64,000 nt of DNA, taken from NCBI GenBank assembly GCA_015233365.1, contig JADFXU010000007.1:1-64000 (forward strand), in the 5' to 3' direction. Shown in pieces: positions 51,039-63,963 of the stretch. The first letter of the stretch is position 1, and each line of letters starts with the position of its first letter. The stretch is from Nitrospirota bacterium (lineage in GTDB: Bacteria > Nitrospirota > Thermodesulfovibrionia > Thermodesulfovibrionales > Dissulfurispiraceae). Below the pieces are notes generated by a model that ran no database searches, was not told where the DNA came from, and worked only from the letters and a program-made list of their open reading frames with translations. A program made the translations under genes and the position numbers.

Positions 51039-52394
51039 GTGTATCGGGGATGGACTGCCGTGACTATAGAAGAAATATGGAATAAGAATCTTTTGGAGAT
51101 AGCAAAGAAAGTAGGAGACAATCTTTTTGAACTGTGGTTCAAGCCGATGAGACTGCTAGGACTTAAAGACAAGGTAATGACTATCGGCATTCCCAACAGG
51201 TTTTTCAGGGAGTGGATTGAGGATTATTATCCGTCAATTGTGAATGAAACAGCCGAAGTCATTATAGGGTATCCTGTTTCGGTCAAATATAAGATTATAG
51301 AGAAAGAAGATGCGGCGCTAAAAAAGCACGACACCAAGCTGGAGAGCAGAAAAATCAAGCTCGCAAGCAGGGGAATATATCTGAGTCCGAAGTACACTTT
51401 CGATACCTTTGTTGTGGGCCCGTCGAACCAGTTCGCTCATGCGGCCTCCAGGAGAATCTCCGAGAACCCGGGAATCGCATATAATCCTTTGTTTATTTAC
51501 GGGGGGGTCGGCCTCGGCAAGACGCACCTGATGAATGCGATAGGCAACATGATTGTCGATAAGTACCCTGATAAAGTGGTGTGCTATGTTTCTGCCGAGC
51601 AGTTCACGAATGAAGTCATTTCAGCGCTGCGTCACGAAAAGATGGCGGAGTTTAAGGACAAATTCAGAAATGTGGATGTAATGCTCATAGATGATATTCA
51701 GTTTATAGCCAATAAAACCACGACACAGGAAGAATTTTTCCATACGTTTAACGCCCTTTATGAAAAGCAGCGCCAGATTGTTGTGTCGAGCGACAGGGCG
51801 CCGCTGGAGATATCCGATATTACGGACAGGCTCAGGTCCAGGTTCAGCATGGGGCTCATAGCTGATATTCAGCCGCCTGAAGTCGAAACTAAAGTCGCGA
51901 TTATTTTAAAAAAGGCCGGAGCGGAAAAGATGGTCATCCCGAATGATGTGGCCTATTTTATTGCGACAAAAATAAAGTCCAACATAAGAGAACTGGAGGG
52001 GTGCCTGATAAAGCTGGGGGCGCATTCGTCGCTTACAGGCCTTTCGATTGATACCGAAATGGCCAAGGTGGTGCTTAAAGATCTTATAATGGACGATGAA
52101 AAACCCATTACCGTCGAGCTGATACAGAAGATTGTGTGCGATTATTTCGGTCTGAAAATTCAGGATATAAGGGCACGGAAGAGGACAAAGGAAATAGCGA
52201 ATGCACGGCAGATAGCTATGTATATAGCAAAGCGTAATACCAACCTCTCGCTGAGTGAAATAGGAAGGTATTTTGGGGGAAAAGATCATGCGACCGTAAT
52301 CTATGCCTGCAAACAGATAGAAGAAAAACGCGGCAAGGATGAAAACCTGAACAAGAGTGTCGAAAATATAGTTCGGAGAGTTACCGGCGTATAA
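51039..52394 (+). CDS. dnaA: Chromosomal replication initiator DnaA
   Basis: NPLFIYGGVGLGKTHLMNAIGN, C-terminal GGKDHATVIYACKQIEE. Confidence 0.97.
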   Translation: MYRGWTAVTIEEIWNKNLLEIAKKVGDNLFELWFKPMRLLGLKDKVMTIGIPNRFFREWIEDYYPSIVNETAEVIIGYPVSVKYKIIEKEDAALKKHDTKLESRKIKLASRGIYLSPKYTFDTFVVGPSNQFAHAASRRISENPGIAYNPLFIYGGVGLGKTHLMNAIGNMIVDKYPDKVVCYVSAEQFTNEVISALRHEKMAEFKDKFRNVDVMLIDDIQFIANKTTTQEEFFHTFNALYEKQRQIVVSSDRAPLEISDITDRLRSRFSMGLIADIQPPEVETKVAIILKKAGAEKMVIPNDVAYFIATKIKSNIRELEGCLIKLGAHSSLTGLSIDTEMAKVVLKDLIMDDEKPITVELIQKIVCDYFGLKIQDIRARKRTKEIANARQIAMYIAKRNTNLSLSEIGRYFGGKDHATVIYACKQIEEKRGKDENLNKSVENIVRRVTGV

Positions 52395-52436
52395 AACGTT
52401 CGAGGCAGAGTTAAAAACGGAATGACGGAGGGATTG

Positions 52437-53540
52437 ATGAAGGTAACGGTGGAAAAAAATGAATTGCAGAAAAAGCTTTCAGACATTCAGAACATAGTTG
52501 AGAAAAAGAATACCATGCCCATCCTGAGCCATTTTCTTCTTGTGGTCGAGAAGAGCGAAGCATACATAACGGCCACGGATCTCGAAACCGCCTTCAGGGA
52601 ACCTCTTAAGGTGACTGCGGTCGCCGATGGGAAGCTGTGCATCCCTGCAAAGAAACTGTTCGAAATTGTGCGGGAAGTGGAAGGCGATATCGTGCTTGAA
52701 TCGGGCGATCAGAAATGGCTTAAAGTCAAAAGCGGGAAAAGCAACTTCCGTCTCGCCTGTCTCTCCGCCGATGAATTTCCGGTCTGGCCGGCGCTGGCGG
52801 AAGATACTGAAAAGATGGAAATAGATTCCCTCCTGCTTCTCGAAATGATCGATAAAACCCTTTATTCCGCAGGAGAGTCGGACACCCGGTATGTTTTGAA
52901 CGGCCTGCTTTTTAACATAAAAGCGGACGGCAGTCTTACGGTTGTCGGCACCGACGGCCACAGGCTTGCGCTTTCCACCAAGGCAACGGGTTCAACACTC
53001 AAAGAAGAGAGAAAGATTATCTTTTCGAGAAAATCCCTGTCTGAACTGCGCAGGTTCCTTGATGAGGAAGCAAAGCCGGTCAAGATGGTGATGGGGAAAA
53101 ATCACATCCTGTTCGAGATCGATTCTATACAATTTCTCACCAGGCTTATAGAAGGTACTTATCCCAATTACGAACAGGTCATTCCTGCTGCAGGGGACAA
53201 GACGATTATTATAGACAGGATCGCGCTGATGAAATCGCTGCGAAGGGTCTCCATAATGAGCAAAGAGAGGAGCAGCGCCGTAAAGGTCGATATCGAGCCC
53301 AATACTATCAGGATCTCCGCTTCCAATCCCGACCTCGGGGAAGCCAAGGATGAGATTGCGATGGAATATGCGGGCGACCCGATCACGGTAGCATTCAACG
53401 CGCGGTATATTCTTGATGCCTTAAGCGTAATGAGCACGGACAACATTCTTATCAAACTGAATGAGCCGTTGAGTCCGACGCTTATAATGGAAAACGAAAG
53501 CGATGATTACAAATACGTTGTTATGCCTATGCGGCTGTAA
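52437..53540 (+). CDS. dnaN: DNA polymerase III beta subunit
   Basis: MKVTVEKNELQKKLSDIQNIVEKKNTMPILSHFLL; C-terminal VVMPMRL. Confidence 0.97.
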   Translation: MKVTVEKNELQKKLSDIQNIVEKKNTMPILSHFLLVVEKSEAYITATDLETAFREPLKVTAVADGKLCIPAKKLFEIVREVEGDIVLESGDQKWLKVKSGKSNFRLACLSADEFPVWPALAEDTEKMEIDSLLLLEMIDKTLYSAGESDTRYVLNGLLFNIKADGSLTVVGTDGHRLALSTKATGSTLKEERKIIFSRKSLSELRRFLDEEAKPVKMVMGKNHILFEIDSIQFLTRLIEGTYPNYEQVIPAAGDKTIIIDRIALMKSLRRVSIMSKERSSAVKVDIEPNTIRISASNPDLGEAKDEIAMEYAGDPITVAFNARYILDALSVMSTDNILIKLNEPLSPTLIMENESDDYKYVVMPMRL

Positions 53541-53629
53541 AAAAGAAGCAGTCAGTTATTGGTAAAGACACCCAAAATTTTATCTGTCATGCCCGAAGTT
53601 TTTAATCGGGCATCCAGGTCGTTTTATAA

Positions 53630-56083
<2,454 letters not shown>

Positions 56084-56101
56084 GTACAAGCGAGGGTTCA
56101 T

Positions 56102-56419
56102 GTGCAGCAAAAAGATCTTAAAATAGCTGAAAAGTTCAAGTCTCTGGTCGCGCAGAGGGTAAAAGTTCACGAAGTCAAAATCTTCGGTTCCCGCGCACGG
56201 GGCAATGCCACTGAAGAGTCGGACCTCGACGTTCTTATTGTAGTTGATCATCTTGATCATGCACTGGAAAAATTTATAAGCGAGTGCGCATGGGAAGCGG
56301 GGTTTCCCGAAGATGTTGTTGTCGTGCCGATCGCCATTAGCATCGATTCCATGAAAAGCAGCGCACTCCGTGAGTCAGTATTCATCAAGACGGTTTATAG
56401 AGAGGGAGTAGCAGTGTGA
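56102..56419 (+). CDS. MNT-type minimal nucleotidyltransferase (putative antitoxin)
   Basis: VKIFGSRARGNATEESDLDVLIVV: GSRARG...SDLDVLI motif. Confidence 0.9.
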   Translation: MQQKDLKIAEKFKSLVAQRVKVHEVKIFGSRARGNATEESDLDVLIVVDHLDHALEKFISECAWEAGFPEDVVVVPIAISIDSMKSSALRESVFIKTVYREGVAV

Positions 56420-56820
56420 ATGAAAAGATACTCGCGCTGATACAATACAGACTTCAACAATCCGACGACTCTATCAAAGAAGCAACAGTTCTTTTAAAAG
56501 AACGTATGAGCTATAGGGCAGTGATTAACCGTTTATATTACGCCATGTTTTATGCCGTGTTAGCCCTTTTACAGGAGAAGCAGATAGGCACTTCGAAACA
56601 CTCCGGAGCAATTTCTCTCTTCGACAAGGAATTTATCAAAGGCGGTATTTTTGATAAAGGCCTATCCATGACCCTGCATCGGGCCTTTGAACTCAGACAA
56701 AAAGGCGATTATATGGAACAGGCTGAGGTTACCAAAGAGGATGTGGACGAGATATTTCCAAAGGCCTTGGATTTTGTGAACAAGGCGAGAACATGCCTGC
56801 TCGGCACAGGCAATTCTTAG
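56416..56820 (+). CDS. HEPN-domain protein (putative toxin partner)
   Basis: [24 protein letters not shown]; overlaps the MNT gene by 4 nt. Confidence 0.88.
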
Positions 56821-57017: not shown

Positions 57018-57443
57018 CTATTTCTTACTTAGAATTCGAAAAATGCGGTTAACTTCCCTTTCCAAATTTGTTTGGCTCTGAATTGTACATTCCCATACGA
57101 CGATTACTGACCAGCCATTCCTTCGCAGTGCCTTGTCATTTCGTGTATCTCGGCGCTTATTATTGAGCAGTTTTGGCTCCCAGTATTCTTGTCTGCTGCG
57201 GGGAATATGTCCGTCGATGCAGTCATGTCCGTGCCAAAAACAACCCCTGACTTGAATTACTGTTCGGTAAATTGGCAGAACGATATCAGGTTTGCCAGGT
57301 AACGTATTCACATGAAGGCGAAACCGAAGACCTTGCCTGTGGAGGACTTTTCTCAGGGTTATCTCTGGTTTTGTATCCTTTGACCTAATGCGGCTCATTA
57401 CCTCTGAGCGTTTCTTATTTGTAAAAACATCAGGCATGCTCAA
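57018..57443 (-). CDS. vsr: Very short patch repair endonuclease
   Basis: MPDVFTNKKRSEVMSRIRSKDTKPEITLRKVLH...VRGCFWHGHDC. Confidence 0.95.
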   Translation of the reverse strand: MSMPDVFTNKKRSEVMSRIRSKDTKPEITLRKVLHRQGLRFRLHVNTLPGKPDIVLPIYRTVIQVRGCFWHGHDCIDGHIPRSRQEYWEPKLLNNKRRDTRNDKALRRNGWSVIVVWECTIQSQTNLEREVNRIFRILSKK

Positions 57444-58633
57444 TTTGCATCAAAGCGAATTCTTTTTTCTTCGGCCCATTGAGGATAGAGGTCTACTTGG
57501 TACCGTGCAGTCTTTAATAAAATAGCATTTTCTTCAACTAGAGACGACCACAGGTGTGGATCGGCATCGACTTCTTGGTCGATATCTCTGAATCGTTCTG
57601 TCTGATCAAGAATCCCCATGGCAAGGGATTGCTCGTTGATGTGTGGTTCGGGGTTCTTAAGAGATAAGCCACTTTTGTCGTTTATTGGCACATTAACCGG
57701 CGAGAAAAGAAAAGCCAAAGACAACATGTTTGGGAAAGAAACGGGCGTTTGGTTGTTTTCGACCCGGTACCAACAACTGTCAAGCATCTCAACAAGCCAG
57801 TTATTATTGGTGTCATAAAACAACTGTATGAGCCATTTGCCGAATCCAGCAGCGAATAGTTTTACGAATTCCCTGTCTCTACATCCCACAAGAACTTCAT
57901 CGACATTTACGCTTTCATTGTACCTGGTAAAATCCCAGTTCGACATTTCTACTAGTCGTTGACCAAACAACGAATTACTCTCAGAATTATTCTTAAGGCA
58001 TTTCAGATAGTGGGGAAGGTGAGCAACATTTACCTGCTCGTATTCTGCTCTTGTAGTAAGGAAAAGCAACCATTTTTCTCTACTATTATTTATTTGGTAT
58101 TCACAAAGATTATGCAACACCTGGTGGTTATCCGGGAAATTGATGCAAGAGATTGATCCGCAAAGATCCAAATTTACAATATCAAAGGGGCCGTGTCCAC
58201 GTATATAGTTGAATCCTTGGGAGTCGGTGCTTTTAAGCACCGATATATTGTCGGTAACTATGACAGAGCCAGGCTGGATGTTGTTGCTTATTTCGTTCCG
58301 GGAGATGTTTACCTCCGTCTGAGATGTGCGATCCCTCGCTTCTTCGTCAAAGCCGAGGCACTTTAGTTGCAGCCCTTTTTCGTTGCAAAGGTGTGCCAGA
58401 ACACGGATGTCAAGCATGTCTTCTCCTGGAAGGGAAAGGTATCGCAGAGACCGACCATCTAATCGAAGATGAGGAATTAGAGCCTTTATCTCTTTGAGCC
58501 ACTGATTGTTGCGAACCCACTGTTTCCTTGGTTTATGCCAAGGCTTGAACTCCCTCGCAGTAACAGGCGATTCATGTGAGATTTTTTTCGGAGCAATGCC
58601 TTCAATAAGGCCATTTTCTGGTTTATCAAACAT
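57440..58633 (-). CDS. Uncharacterised 397-aa protein with Rossmann/SAM-MTase-like N-terminal region
   Basis: RYLSLPGEDMLDIRVLAHLCNEKGLQLKCLGFDEEA ... GPFDIVNLDLCGSISC; stop overlaps vsr start. Confidence 0.75.
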   Translation of the reverse strand: MFDKPENGLIEGIAPKKISHESPVTAREFKPWHKPRKQWVRNNQWLKEIKALIPHLRLDGRSLRYLSLPGEDMLDIRVLAHLCNEKGLQLKCLGFDEEARDRTSQTEVNISRNEISNNIQPGSVIVTDNISVLKSTDSQGFNYIRGHGPFDIVNLDLCGSISCINFPDNHQVLHNLCEYQINNSREKWLLFLTTRAEYEQVNVAHLPHYLKCLKNNSESNSLFGQRLVEMSNWDFTRYNESVNVDEVLVGCRDREFVKLFAAGFGKWLIQLFYDTNNNWLVEMLDSCWYRVENNQTPVSFPNMLSLAFLFSPVNVPINDKSGLSLKNPEPHINEQSLAMGILDQTERFRDIDQEVDADPHLWSSLVEENAILLKTARYQVDLYPQWAEEKRIRFDAN

Positions 58634-58644
58634 GTTACCTCTGA

Positions 58645-60597
58645 TTATCGAGAGAAGATGGCAACAATGTCCTGTAATAAACGCTGCTGTTTATCATAGG
58701 GCATGTCATTAAAGACGCCATATGCGTCGAGGACTTTGGCGACGGCTTTAATTTGAGCCTCAAACTTTGTCTCTTCCAGTTTGTTATCTTTTGTTTTCCG
58801 TAATGTTTCATCCCTATCTTTAAATACAGTTGATTTCTGGAATGCTAAAATCCCATCTTTTCTAAGCTTCACTTGATTTTCATGATCGTCCGTGAATTCG
58901 ACTTTTGGCAGAGGAGTATCCTCATCTGGAATAATGGATCGCAAGGATTTATTAGTTTGCTGCTCCAATTCATCCAGTTCTTGTTGTGCTTTTTCTGTTT
59001 TTGTACTAACCCTGATTTCTTTAGCAAGCGATTTGTGACGGTTTGCGAGTTGACGGAAAGCGTTATGCACCCAATGAGTAATATATTGATAATGTGGATG
59101 CGAGAAGTTGAAGGATTCCCGGTCTATATTCAAAGCTGCGTCCAATCCCTTTGTCACAAATATCTCTGCTGTAACTTGATCCTTGCGTCGCTGTTCAGAC
59201 ACAGGATAGTGTAGAAAACTGTTATCGAAGAGTACCCCGTTTGAATCGTTAATGCGGATTAATACTCCTGCGTGTTCTTTAGGCACTACCGTGTGATTCC
59301 AGAAAAAATAGGCCTCAAATTCCAAATCACCGCCTCTCACCTCTGCTGGATATGCAGAGAGATCGGGGGCATCTTTACCCACGAAAAGGAGTGAGTAAGG
59401 GACTGACTCAAGGGTTTTGGGAAGATTTCGAAACCGAATTGGGCGAAATAACTGAACCCCATCAATGACAACACGAAAATCTGGTGTTTTCCCTCTTTCT
59501 GGCGATAATAATTCCAATTTATGACGTATACTTTCACCTGCGTCAAGATTCAATTCTTCTGCTTGATCTTTCTTCGTATTCCCTATAACGAATATCTTAA
59601 GGCCCGATTCCGAAATAAGTTCAAAAGGATGCCCATCAACGTAATCTACAGGTGCTGAAAGACTTAATATCCATAACATTCTCAAATAATAATCCAGATG
59701 ATCATAAATGCTTGGATTGCGGTCTGTCCGGCCACGAAGGTCGTACATTTTATCAATAAGTTTGCCGAAACGTTTTTCAGGACTATCGGATGCATCCCAT
59801 GGTAGGACGGCCCTTTGGGCAATTAAATGCGGGGGATCATTGTGAACACAGCCAATATGAAATGCTGGAGGGTTCGGAGGAGCTATGATTACATCCGTCA
59901 TTCCCTCTGTTGTCTCTGGATTGCATCTAACCCACATCTCCTTGCTTGTAAGATCGTCTTTTGTCTTGGGGAGAAGATTTCTCAACACCACTTCTGTGCC
60001 ATGGCTATCGATGTCTGTAGCTGTAACCTTCCATATTTTGACGGTGCCTGTTGTGTATTCTTGTTCCGGAGTATCTATGGAGTCTTCGGAGTAAGTATGC
60101 AGAATGACGTCAGCAATTGTACGATGATTGGCACCCTTTGTCTTGGTAATTATTTGGAACTCCTTAGTTAACTGGGATACTGAGAATAAGCCTATACCAA
60201 TTTTGCCAATTAATTTTCTCCCCCCTGGACTGCGGAATTTATCTGTTGTGCTACAAACACCCATGCCAGAACCGTCAGATGTTCTCTTTGAACTGCCTCC
60301 GATACTATGTATCAGGTAAGAAAGAGCCTCTGGCGTTAGACCATTTCCGTTATCGCGGACGATGATTTGTTCAAATCTAGGGGGATCTGTTTGGATCTCA
60401 ACTAAAGTAGCATCAGCATCATAGGCATTTGAAATGAGTTCTCGCAGTGCAGATGAAGGCTGGCGATAAATACCATCTGTGACACGGTTGAGGACTCGTT
60501 CTGAAGTTGCAAGCTTTCCCTCTACAACTTTGTTGTCAGAAGCATTGAGAATTTCTTGTGCAAATAGATGGATTTTATCACGGGTGTCTTGGTTCAT
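58645..60597 (-). CDS. GHKL (HSP90/MutL/MORC-like) ATPase
   Basis: ALRELISNAYDADATLVEI (N-box), VRDNGNGLTPE (DxGxG), IGKIGIGLFSVSQL (GxGxxS). Confidence 0.88.
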   Translation of the reverse strand: MNQDTRDKIHLFAQEILNASDNKVVEGKLATSERVLNRVTDGIYRQPSSALRELISNAYDADATLVEIQTDPPRFEQIIVRDNGNGLTPEALSYLIHSIGGSSKRTSDGSGMGVCSTTDKFRSPGGRKLIGKIGIGLFSVSQLTKEFQIITKTKGANHRTIADVILHTYSEDSIDTPEQEYTTGTVKIWKVTATDIDSHGTEVVLRNLLPKTKDDLTSKEMWVRCNPETTEGMTDVIIAPPNPPAFHIGCVHNDPPHLIAQRAVLPWDASDSPEKRFGKLIDKMYDLRGRTDRNPSIYDHLDYYLRMLWILSLSAPVDYVDGHPFELISESGLKIFVIGNTKKDQAEELNLDAGESIRHKLELLSPERGKTPDFRVVIDGVQLFRPIRFRNLPKTLESVPYSLLFVGKDAPDLSAYPAEVRGGDLEFEAYFFWNHTVVPKEHAGVLIRINDSNGVLFDNSFLHYPVSEQRRKDQVTAEIFVTKGLDAALNIDRESFNFSHPHYQYITHWVHNAFRQLANRHKSLAKEIRVSTKTEKAQQELDELEQQTNKSLRSIIPDEDTPLPKVEFTDDHENQVKLRKDGILAFQKSTVFKDRDETLRKTKDNKLEETKFEAQIKAVAKVLDAYGVFNDMPYDKQQRLLQDIVAIFSR

Positions 60598-60605
60598 AGT
60601 TTCTT

Positions 60606-60728
60606 CTATCTAACTAATTTGAGCAGCACACTAAGTGCAGCGCTCACCATTGGCGCTGGCACCGCATTGGTGACTTGGCCCATCTGATGTTGATCTGCAA
60701 CCATTTTTTTCCACTTTTTTGGTGATTG
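60606..60728 (-). pseudogene. C-terminal stump of a second C5-cytosine methyltransferase
   Basis: Minus strand reads SPKKWKKMVADQHQMGQVTNAVPAPMVSAALSVLLKLVR*; QVTNAVPAP resembles C5-MTase motif X. Stop is 8 nt before the GHKL ATPase start; an in-frame TAA lies just upstream. Confidence 0.6.
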
Positions 60729-60844
60729 ATTTTAGAACTCGTCAGGCAATTTTGTCTATAGCGATAGTCATGGGTAATGCGATCCGTTGCTGAGTTAGTA
60801 AATACGCGATCGGTAAACAGCTCCCCCATTCTCCATCCCTAAAA

Positions 60845-61939
60845 CTATATGACTAGGTCAAATGGCAGGTCAGATATGTCACGCAGCCTGTTTAAATCCT
60901 TCAGGACATTTAGCCAGTCAAGTTCTGTCATGCGACTTGATGTTTGTTTATTGGCAAATAATCCTTCATCTGTAGCTGCTTCATCGATAGTTGTCTTATC
61001 ATCTTCTGGCATTGATCCAATCCCATGAATAACCTGTTCAAGCTCAGGAAGGCACACGTGATACACACAATCTATGTCGACTCCCATTGCCAAAGACCTG
61101 ATTCTTGACGGCCTCGGCTCACCGACAACAACAACAAAATGTGGCGCTCTTCCGCGACGTTCCCTTGTTGAAAAAGCCCCTTCAGTACGGGCATTCTGTG
61201 CACGGTCGCTTCTAATAGTCCACTTCACGCTTATTATACCATGCAGCAAGTCAACATCTTCGGCTCCACTGTCCTGGAAAAGCACCGTATTGTTTGCAAC
61301 ACTCTTGTCTACTAGTGGAGACGCCTCATCGGTGCCTTTGCATAGACTGTTTGCAGCATCTTTACTTATTCTTTTTCTGGCCAGAAGCAAATCAGGCTTT
61401 ACGGAATACGACGCAAAATTAGCTCTTACTCTGTTTCTGACCCTAATATCATGAATAGCTTCTATGGCTATGTTCATATCTTTAAGATGACGATACTGAT
61501 CATATTCTTCAAGTAATTTTCCTCCTCTTTCAATTCTAAATGTGCCGGGTCTTAAAGGCAGCAAGTGTGCAATAAAGGTATCCTCTATGAAGAGTCTTAC
61601 CAGTTTTTCCAATTCCGTCCCGCATGACTGTCCTGAGAACGGTTTTTTTGCCGGCTGCCCTTTGATAGTAACAAGCATTTTTTTTGTTTCTTCGATGTTC
61701 TCAAGATCATTCCACCTCTTAACGCCTAGTGATTCAGCAAGAGCATCTGCAATGTGACATTTGCCGTCTGCATTTGATGGCCTCCAGTATCGGGTGTCAG
61801 AATCGTAAGCTCGAAAATAGAACGGGCGCACGCCTCTTTCCAAATCCGCCGTCCCATTCATTTTGAAAGCTGGGCGTCCAAAAATCATCTCACGGATAAA
61901 TTTTTCTCTGATTTCTCCAATCTTGCAGGAATGAGTCAT
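60845..61939 (-). CDS. Type II restriction endonuclease, NgoMIV-like
   Basis: VKPDLLLARKR ... LHGIISVKWTIRSDRAQNARTEG ... VVGEPRPSRIRSLAMG, PD...SxK active-site layout; start taken at MTHSCKIGE. Confidence 0.75.
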   Translation of the reverse strand: MTHSCKIGEIREKFIREMIFGRPAFKMNGTADLERGVRPFYFRAYDSDTRYWRPSNADGKCHIADALAESLGVKRWNDLENIEETKKMLVTIKGQPAKKPFSGQSCGTELEKLVRLFIEDTFIAHLLPLRPGTFRIERGGKLLEEYDQYRHLKDMNIAIEAIHDIRVRNRVRANFASYSVKPDLLLARKRISKDAANSLCKGTDEASPLVDKSVANNTVLFQDSGAEDVDLLHGIISVKWTIRSDRAQNARTEGAFSTRERRGRAPHFVVVVGEPRPSRIRSLAMGVDIDCVYHVCLPELEQVIHGIGSMPEDDKTTIDEAATDEGLFANKQTSSRMTELDWLNVLKDLNRLRDISDLPFDLVI

Positions 61940-61946
61940 CTTGTCT

Positions 61947-62906
61947 TTATGCAGCCGTCCTGCGCCTGCGTGCTCTCGCCGCTGCTTCAAATGCTGCAGC
62001 AAGAGAAGATGCAACTGCCTGCGCTACAGGTGGAGGGAAAGCGTTGCCGACTTGTCTATAAGCATTTGTTTTTTTGCCACAAAACTCCCATGCATCTGGG
62101 AAACCTTGCAGCCTGGCTACCATCCTGACTGTCAGCCGCGGCATGCCGACAAAGCCATCGGAAGGAGCACTATCTGCAATCCCACCGCCATCGACTCCAA
62201 GACTTGCCCACGCTTTCTTTGCCCGCGTCGGACCTAAGTCAGGGCCTCCATGCTTTTTAGATCCACCAACTATAGTAGGCGCAATATCGTTTGCGCGATT
62301 TGCCCACAAGGCTGCCCCACTCCATCGGTTTGCCGCCATTAAATCAAGAAGGGCATAACCGACTGTTTGTTGCTGCTCATCTTGTGGGATGGGCCAATTG
62401 AAATGCCTTGCTATACTGCGGGGCATAGCAACGAAAACAACACGCGGACGTAGTTGAGGCACACCAAAATCCGAAGCGTTAAGTAACCTCCAAGAAACGG
62501 AATAGCCCATTCCTTGTAGTTTTTTCATCACCCTTCCACGATAATCATCAAAAACAGTATCCAAAATTCCCCTGACATTTTCAAACATTATTGCACGTGG
62601 TCGAGCCGCATCAACAATATCAAGCCCAACATCGAAAAGATTTCGTTCATCAGCTTCCCCCAATTGTTTCCCTGCTTTCGAAAAGGGAGGGCACGGAAAT
62701 CCGCCTGCTAAGAGATCAACACCCCTCCATGCTGCTACGTCCTGCTCGGCTATATCACCCTGAATTATATTCCAGGACGGCCTGTTTGCTCTCAAGGTAT
62801 CACATGCATGTTTATCAATTTCGACAAGAGCAATGGGCGCGAAGCCTGCTGCATGCAGCCCGGCAGCCTGCCCCCCCGCTCCGGCACATAATTCAACGCA
62901 ATCCAT
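61947..62906 (-). CDS. DNA (cytosine-5-)-methyltransferase
   Basis: VELCAGAGGQAAGLHAAGF (I), GGFPCPPFSKAGKQ (IV), FENVRGIL (VI), YRQVGNAFPPPVAQAV (X); start taken at MDCVELCAG. Confidence 0.94.
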   Translation of the reverse strand: MDCVELCAGAGGQAAGLHAAGFAPIALVEIDKHACDTLRANRPSWNIIQGDIAEQDVAAWRGVDLLAGGFPCPPFSKAGKQLGEADERNLFDVGLDIVDAARPRAIMFENVRGILDTVFDDYRGRVMKKLQGMGYSVSWRLLNASDFGVPQLRPRVVFVAMPRSIARHFNWPIPQDEQQQTVGYALLDLMAANRWSGAALWANRANDIAPTIVGGSKKHGGPDLGPTRAKKAWASLGVDGGGIADSAPSDGFVGMPRLTVRMVARLQGFPDAWEFCGKKTNAYRQVGNAFPPPVAQAVASSLAAAFEAAARARRRRTAA

Positions 62907-63480: not shown

Positions 63481-63534
63481 AAATAGGGACAGCGACCATT
63501 TTTGTGTCACCAAAAATGGTCGCTGTCCCTATTT
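63481..63534. repeat. REP/MITE-like perfect hairpin, 23-bp arms
   Basis: aaatagggacagcgaccattttt-gtgtcacc-aaaaatggtcgctgtccctattt. Confidence 0.85.
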
Positions 63535-63558: not shown

Positions 63559-63963
63559 TTATGTAAGCTTAATGCTCAACTTTTTCCCGAGTACAAGCGC
63601 GGCCTTCTCCAGAGTATTTAGAGTAACCGAGATATTTTCAGGATCAAGTAGACGATCAACGGAGGTCCGGCTCGTCCGCATCCGAGTTGCCATCTCAACC
63701 TTTGTTAATTTCTTTTTTCCCATCTCCTTTTCAATCTGGAAGGACAGTAAACGTTTTGCCGCAACAGCCTCCGCGCCGGTGAGCATGTTCTGCTCCCTAA
63801 GAAAATCATCAAAATTACTACCGAGATGCTTGCTTTTCATAATGTCCTCGCCCACAGCCTTTCGATCTTCTTTCCGTAACTTTTTGAGCCATTCCCTCAC
63901 AGGCTCCCCGCCGCTTTCGCTTTTATAGAAAATTACTCTCAGAACAGGATCTCTATGCTGCAT
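63559..63963 (-). CDS. HigB-like toxin N-terminal remnant fused in frame to HigA-like XRE antitoxin
   Basis: Residues 1-41 toxin-like (VLRVIFYKSESGGEPVREWLKKLRKEDRKAVGEDI); residues 42-134 antitoxin-like (MKSKHLGSNFDDFLREQNM...KKLTKVEMATRMRTSRTSVDRLL). Confidence 0.8.
   Translation of the reverse strand: MQHRDPVLRVIFYKSESGGEPVREWLKKLRKEDRKAVGEDIMKSKHLGSNFDDFLREQNMLTGAEAVAAKRLLSFQIEKEMGKKKLTKVEMATRMRTSRTSVDRLLDPENISVTLNTLEKAALVLGKKLSIKLT

Follow-up and report, generated by a model that had tools for sequence, protein, structure and literature searches.

A horizontally mobile cassette of C5 methylase, GHKL ATPase and protein X as a possible restriction-modification-like defence system, and its altered copy in a Nitrospirota bacterium

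Which genes make up the compact cassette built around a GHKL ATPase on contig JADFXU010000007.1 of a Nitrospirota bacterium (assembly GCA_015233365.1), and what might it do? The window is the whole stretch of DNA that was analysed, 64,000 nucleotides at positions 1 to 64,000 of this contig. Within it the ATPase, a 397-residue protein designated here X and a Vsr-type endonuclease are encoded at 57018-60597. The analysis shows that the natural unit consists of a C5 cytosine methylase (M), the GHKL ATPase and X, with or without Vsr, and that the window carries an altered copy in which M is displaced by a type II restriction-modification (R-M) pair. We hold with middling confidence that the unit is a mobile R-M-like defence cassette in which GHKL-X is an ATP-driven DNA-surveillance effector and M provides self-protection. 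The genes concerned are the following.

57018-57437, minus strand: Vsr-type endonuclease, 139 amino acids, the optional last gene of the cassette (PF03852 5e-33; TIGR00632 6e-41; PDB 1cw0 4e-28)
57440-58633, minus strand: protein X, 397 amino acids, PP_RS20740 family (NF047698 6e-95)
58645-60597, minus strand: GHKL ATPase, 650 amino acids (HATPase_c_3 1.1e-14)
about 60609-60731, minus strand: C-terminal stump of a C5 methyltransferase, directly upstream of GHKL (QMGQVTNAVPAPMVSAALSVLLKLVR and then a stop; methylase C-terminus profile, E 4.7e-5)
60845-61939, minus strand: NgoMIV-family type II restriction endonuclease, 364 amino acids, of the displacing R-M pair (PF09015 3.1e-51; PDB 1fiu 2e-35)
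61947-62906, minus strand: intact C5 cytosine DNA methyltransferase, 319 amino acids, partner of the NgoMIV-like endonuclease (PF00145 7e-68)

The three same-strand open reading frames (ORFs) reported by a first-pass annotation of this DNA are present, and its identification of the 650-residue protein as a GHKL ATPase and of the 141-codon ORF as Vsr is borne out by the matches listed. The gap of 11 nt between GHKL and X is likewise real. The 4-nt overlap that had been described between X and Vsr probably does not hold up, as it requires an upstream TTG; the Vsr start is probably the ATG at 57437, 2 nt past the X stop, because the homologues begin at the corresponding methionine (MPDVF, MTDVF or MADVL). 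X had been called unknown. It belongs to a named family, NF047698, with 318.7 bits over residues 10-387 against a curated cut-off of 200 bits, but this family carries no assigned function.

Scans with X yielded eight loci in species genomes, one further locus in Pseudomonadales and 12 in viral contigs. Two of these (L023 and L030) start within X, hence 19 relatives have upstream sequence. The GHKL-X pair recurs in Pseudomonadota, Elusimicrobiota, Planctomycetaceae, Geobacteraceae and the 12 viral contigs, so the pairing is more than chance. A C5 methylase, GHKL and X are closely packed in that order in all 19 relatives with upstream sequence, and a DNA methylase neighbourhood is thus encountered in 19/19; the window has the stump beside GHKL and an unrelated intact methylase. 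The earlier view of X as the only other partner of the ATPase has to be given up: X and a C5 methyltransferase accompany it constantly, Vsr only occasionally. Vsr was found in four of the 22 cassettes (divergent in L002, upstream of M in L003 and L017, downstream of X in the window) and in none of the prophage loci. Because the M-GHKL-X order is constant and Vsr is rare and variably placed, the core is M-GHKL-X, an add-on Vsr having been acquired in more than one way. Among 390 genomes of one order, the two that have GHKL orthologues are precisely the two that have X. Pairwise identities across 15 loci give a correlation of r=0.96 between GHKL and X, compared with 0.74 between M and GHKL, identities between related loci not being independent. 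GHKL and X are an obligate pair and form one unit.

The cassette is horizontally mobile. Phage-type integrases adjoin it in L005, L008, L021, L024 and L031 (Pfam/PHROG), integrase-like ORFs with near-identical starts occur in L022, L026 and L028, and McrBC adjoins L002. In the window, G+C content at third codon positions (GC3) of the cassette is 0.37-0.44 versus 0.53-0.61 in host dnaA, dnaN and gyrB. Searches of plasmids, isolated phages and E. coli genomes (the last by DNA search only) gave no match. In the prophage-borne copy L028:2246-4230, the GHKL gene is broken into two frames.

What became of M in the window can be read from the 247 nt between the restriction endonuclease and GHKL. They hold the stump, whose frame runs to a stop immediately ahead of the GHKL start and whose sequence is a C-terminal C5 methylase motif. 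When 2281 six-frame segments of the window were compared with a profile of the cassette-methylase C-terminus, the only significant matches were the stump and the intact methylase. The stump is 46-52% identical to the L002 and L004 methylases over 25-26 residues, and its QVTNAV motif is like those of the cassette methylases (QVSNAV, QISNAV, QVTNAV). The intact window methylase has QVGNAF and is only 26-31% identical to any cassette methylase. Its partner endonuclease keeps the PD, SxK and RSDR stretches in an alignment to PDB 1fiu. These two genes stand where M was and are not part of the GHKL-X family. The cassette methylases form at least three groups, namely L002 (27-32% identical to every other methylase), L009/L017 (54% between the two, 26-32% against the rest) and the remainder (44-95%), whereas the GHKLs across these groups remain 35-47% identical. 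This argues that GHKL-X stayed constant and that the methylase beside it was probably swapped. The window probably shows a further such exchange, in which the methylase was replaced by a whole NgoMIV-type M-R pair. Relocation of the original methylase within the genome was considered, and only the NgoMIV-type methylase was found in the assembly, which is 81% complete. A search upstream of the NgoMIV pair for a leftover 5' part of the original methylase found none, and there was no convincing flanking repeat to mark an M-R insertion. Avoidance of GCCGGC in the window is not clear, with 28 sites seen vs 35 expected.

The GHKL protein is a MORC/Hsp90/MutL/TopoVIB-type ATPase followed by a transducer (S5-like) module and a C-terminal helical region. 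Its model (predicted local distance difference test, pLDDT, 80.7) matches Hsc82 (6xlg, Z 17.2), Morc3 (5ix2, Z 16.5) and MutL (9n2k, Z 15.5). The match to the Hsp90, MORC, MutL and topoisomerase VI-B structures covers residues 30-528, with helices thereafter. The connection with MORC/MutL-like GHKL ATPases in R-M contexts, drawn in the first-pass annotation, is sound. Residues E53, N57, D82, G84, G86, GKxGIG 131-136, G200-T201, R493, H500 and H502 are invariant in 16 sequences, and the ATP-site residues of the window protein are intact. The ALNIDRESFN stretch is also invariant, and we take it to resemble the Hsp90 catalytic loop.

The AlphaFold2 model of X (pLDDT 81.7; predicted template modelling score, pTM, 0.84) adopts a class-I S-adenosylmethionine (SAM)-methyltransferase (Rossmann) fold, with Z of at least 8 for 820 of the best 1000 PDB chains; the best match is Trm1 (3axs, Z 14.2, 227 residues, root-mean-square deviation 4.1). 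This fold was invisible to sequence searches. The conserved motifs are LPGxDxxD, NLDxC, Q180 and T193. Among 21 sequences, LPG 68-70, D75, N154, D156, C158 and T193 are invariant and, in the predicted model, lie where strands 1, 4 and 5 end, forming a conserved pocket of non-canonical make-up; an N-terminal WHxPRK...R..QW stretch is invariant as well. Many residues are kept in a distant relative (P35, K37, R41, W45, LPG, D72, D75, N154, D156, C158, Q180, T193 and Y289). The canonical SAM motif I (GxGxG) is, however, absent from the 21 sequences, which have YLxLPGxDxxD instead. According to the model, X is a conserved protein with the methyltransferase fold that binds a ligand or acts in catalysis, not a demonstrable methyltransferase. 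The possibility that X is a nuclease was discarded, since searches of Pfam, PADLOC and PDB sequences gave nothing convincing and the model has the methyltransferase fold. No model in PADLOC-DB 2.0 matches X convincingly, so the gene set is not a system already named in that database.

How could these parts work together? GHKL and X would act as one ATP-driven machine. GHKL would dimerise into a MORC/MutL/Hsp90-type clamp that shuts around DNA upon ATP binding. X may bind DNA or a small ligand in its LPGxD...NLDxC pocket and might supply the recognition or the chemical step. Judging from its known function, M would mark host DNA, and marked DNA would be ignored by GHKL-X; Vsr, if present, would in keeping with its known role repair T:G mismatches arising from deaminated 5-methylcytosine. 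In this genome, M is reduced to its C-terminal stump with the NgoMIV-type M-R pair in its place, and GHKL, X and Vsr are intact. We favour the defence or R-M reading because of the M-GHKL-X order, the co-occurrence and correlated identities of GHKL and X, the ATP residues, the folds, the integrases, McrBC, the low GC3, the match to BbrUII/HgiDII enzymes and the operons described in the text of PMC2292703. As for the original proposal of a candidate defence system, its support comes from context only (adjoining prophage or island integrases, McrBC near L002).

Several points weigh against this reading. No member has, to our knowledge, a phage phenotype. Experimental work on a member was found in one paper only, which concerns PP_RS20740 of Pseudomonas putida and deals with furfural tolerance (PMC9630843). 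Since neither GHKL nor X has a recognised nuclease domain, the mode of DNA destruction is unexplained, and since X lacks motif I it is perhaps no enzyme at all. Moreover, at L018 and L019, which come from two genera in the order of the window organism, GHKL is followed at a 1-nt overlap by a 334-residue X' (profile matches 3.9e-7 for X' and 5.5e-12 for GHKL; the two X' are 97% identical), and no C5 methylase was found within the fetched 14-15 kb. Together with the window, where GHKL-X persists without its own M, these loci argue that methylation is perhaps not strictly needed for self-protection, and they suggest that GHKL-X may get by with no methylation of its own. At both loci (L018:4440-8212, L019:4767-8539) the GHKL-X' pair precedes a 369-residue protein with a CFRKCNFCG stretch, radical-SAM-like, for which there was no Pfam match at 1e-4. 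GHKL-X' with this protein may be a separate defence-like module.

A version that dispenses with a restriction arm can be put forward tentatively, as a minority view. Here GHKL-X would be a nuclease-less ATP-driven effector in which the degenerate methyltransferase-fold X senses DNA or a ligand or catalyses a reaction; C5 methylases would be interchangeable or missing, and the defence mechanism would be of its own kind.

It is unlikely that GHKL-X simply serves as restriction arm in an ordinary type II-like R-M system, comparable to HgiDII/BbrUII, with a nuclease site in a divergent region (GHKL HxH 500-502, or X). The best family model for the GHKL N-terminus is indeed the BbrUII/HgiDII restriction enzyme family NF050001 (4.5e-24), PADLOC type II restriction endonuclease models match all 16 GHKLs, and the invariant H500/H502 recall an HxH of paraMORC5 in which the text of PMC2292703 sees a possible nuclease site. 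However, the NF050001 match reaches 85 bits vs a cut-off of 550 and spans the ATPase domain only (positions 9-172 of the 659 in the profile). H500 and H502 lie at the start of a long helix beside the NIDRESFN loop, which in our own interpretation is like an Hsp90-type ATP-catalytic element. Neither Pfam nor fold comparison of the predicted structures yields a nuclease domain in GHKL or X, GHKL residues after about 530 being barely covered by the fold comparison. Furthermore, a host that has lost M, as in the window, would be expected to suffer harm if the new M did not make up for it.

A modification or chromatin-like system, in which GHKL-X compacts, silences or further modifies DNA without cutting and X is an active methyltransferase of unknown substrate, is distinctly unlikely. 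The predicted fold of X would suit it, as would the resemblance of GHKL to MORC by fold, the nuclease not found and the tolerated loss of M. MORC entraps and compacts DNA. Methyl transfer is nevertheless doubtful, as motif I is absent.

It is improbable that the window copy is a decaying remnant, with GHKL-X-Vsr as passengers beside an active NgoMIV-type R-M system. M is cut to a stump, a sign of breakdown, and the 81%-complete genome has no other cassette-type M, but the 1,186 codons of GHKL, X and Vsr are open with conserved residues intact, and a GHKL-X' pair without M exists elsewhere (L018/L019).

The window Vsr keeps the metal-site Asp of PGKPD and the GCFWH.H.C stretch; the active-site His64 of the E. 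coli enzyme is Arg here in an alignment to 1cw0. A dedicated very-short-patch repair module unrelated to defence, with a MutL-like GHKL assisting Vsr, is very improbable, for although GHKL has MutL-like matches, Vsr is close-coupled to X in the window and MutL works with Vsr in E. coli (cited in the text of PMC2292703), the few cassettes with Vsr carry it in three of four cases upstream of or divergent from M, and in the prophage loci no Vsr was found.

The surroundings of the window copy deserve a description. The cassette lies behind dnaA-dnaN-gyrB, which are on the opposite strand, and after an MNT/HEPN pair (51039-56820). This MNT nucleotidyltransferase and HEPN pair, toxin-antitoxin-like, adjoins the cassette at 56102-56820. 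In Chromobacterium (L007:1-5935), the cassette directly follows dnaN-gyrB, a second insertion beside the same replication genes. Upstream of the methylase, at 63481-63534, there is a perfect 24-nt inverted repeat (GGGACAGCGACCATTTTTG / CAAAAATGGTCGCTGTCCC) that resembles a mobile repeat or a strong bidirectional terminator. At 63559-63963, a single ORF starts like a HigB toxin and ends like an XRE-type antitoxin; it had no Pfam match at 0.001.

PP_RS20740, a named family without known function, now has a predicted fold and an obligate GHKL partner, so that its role can be tested directly. Nature has in effect run an experiment in the window: with GHKL, X and Vsr preserved intact beside an NgoMIV-type replacement of the cassette's own methylase, one can ask whether self-protection by such GHKL machines depends on methylation. 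In animals and plants, MORC relatives have a DNA-silencing role, and the bacterial GHKL mechanism is for this reason of wider interest.

How does the cassette compare with known systems? The literature found to bear on the GHKL side was limited to PMC2292703, PMC8011034 and PMC12137116, and on X to PMC9630843. GrwAB, tried as a GHKL-receiver relative, was set aside because its paper shows it to be GmrSD-like and unrelated. The type II NgoMIV R-M system is represented by the upstream M-R pair, a neighbour and not a member of the GHKL-X family. Unlike in MZA or Z1/AIPR systems, no cassette gene in the window matches Z1 or AIPR, in agreement with the first-pass annotation. VcSduA (paraMORC3 Shedu; PMC12137116) shares a GHKL ATPase, there in proven phage defence, and differs in its fused DUF4263 nuclease, none being recognised in the cassette. 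The HEF_HK/Response_reg_2 pairs (PF19191/PF19192), which resemble two-component systems, combine a C5 methylase, a paraMORC-type GHKL, a small receiver-like partner and Vsr, the latter often beside the partner gene (PMC8011034). Despite this likeness, neither GHKL nor X of any member has a Pfam match to PF19191 or PF19192. An hhalign comparison of X with a single response-regulator-like protein (L016) was negative, as was that of GHKL with the neighbouring, partial frame of L016.

The BbrUII/HgiDII enzymes share the GHKL N-terminal domain, but the match is confined to the ATPase domain, and a second protein, X, is always present here. The closest setting is that of Iyer, Abhiman and Aravind (2008; PMC2292703), whose text describes R-M operons in which paraMORCs occur together with C5 methylases and Vsr. 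As in those operons, a GHKL and S5-type ATPase stands beside a C5 methylase and sometimes Vsr, with a patchy, laterally mobile distribution, and with an invariant HxH (H500/H502) like the one noted for paraMORC5. Unlike in them, no helicase or nuclease was recognised in the cassette, the Vsr of four of the 22 copies aside, and the constant partner is the methyltransferase-fold X. The text of that paper, its figures aside, does not describe X as a partner; with the same limit, the literature searched yielded no account of the methyltransferase fold of X, the obligate GHKL-X pairing or the displacement of M. The setting of paraMORC, C5 methylase and Vsr was already described in 2008, and we judge the present cassette to be a variant of the paraMORC R-M cassettes of Iyer et al.

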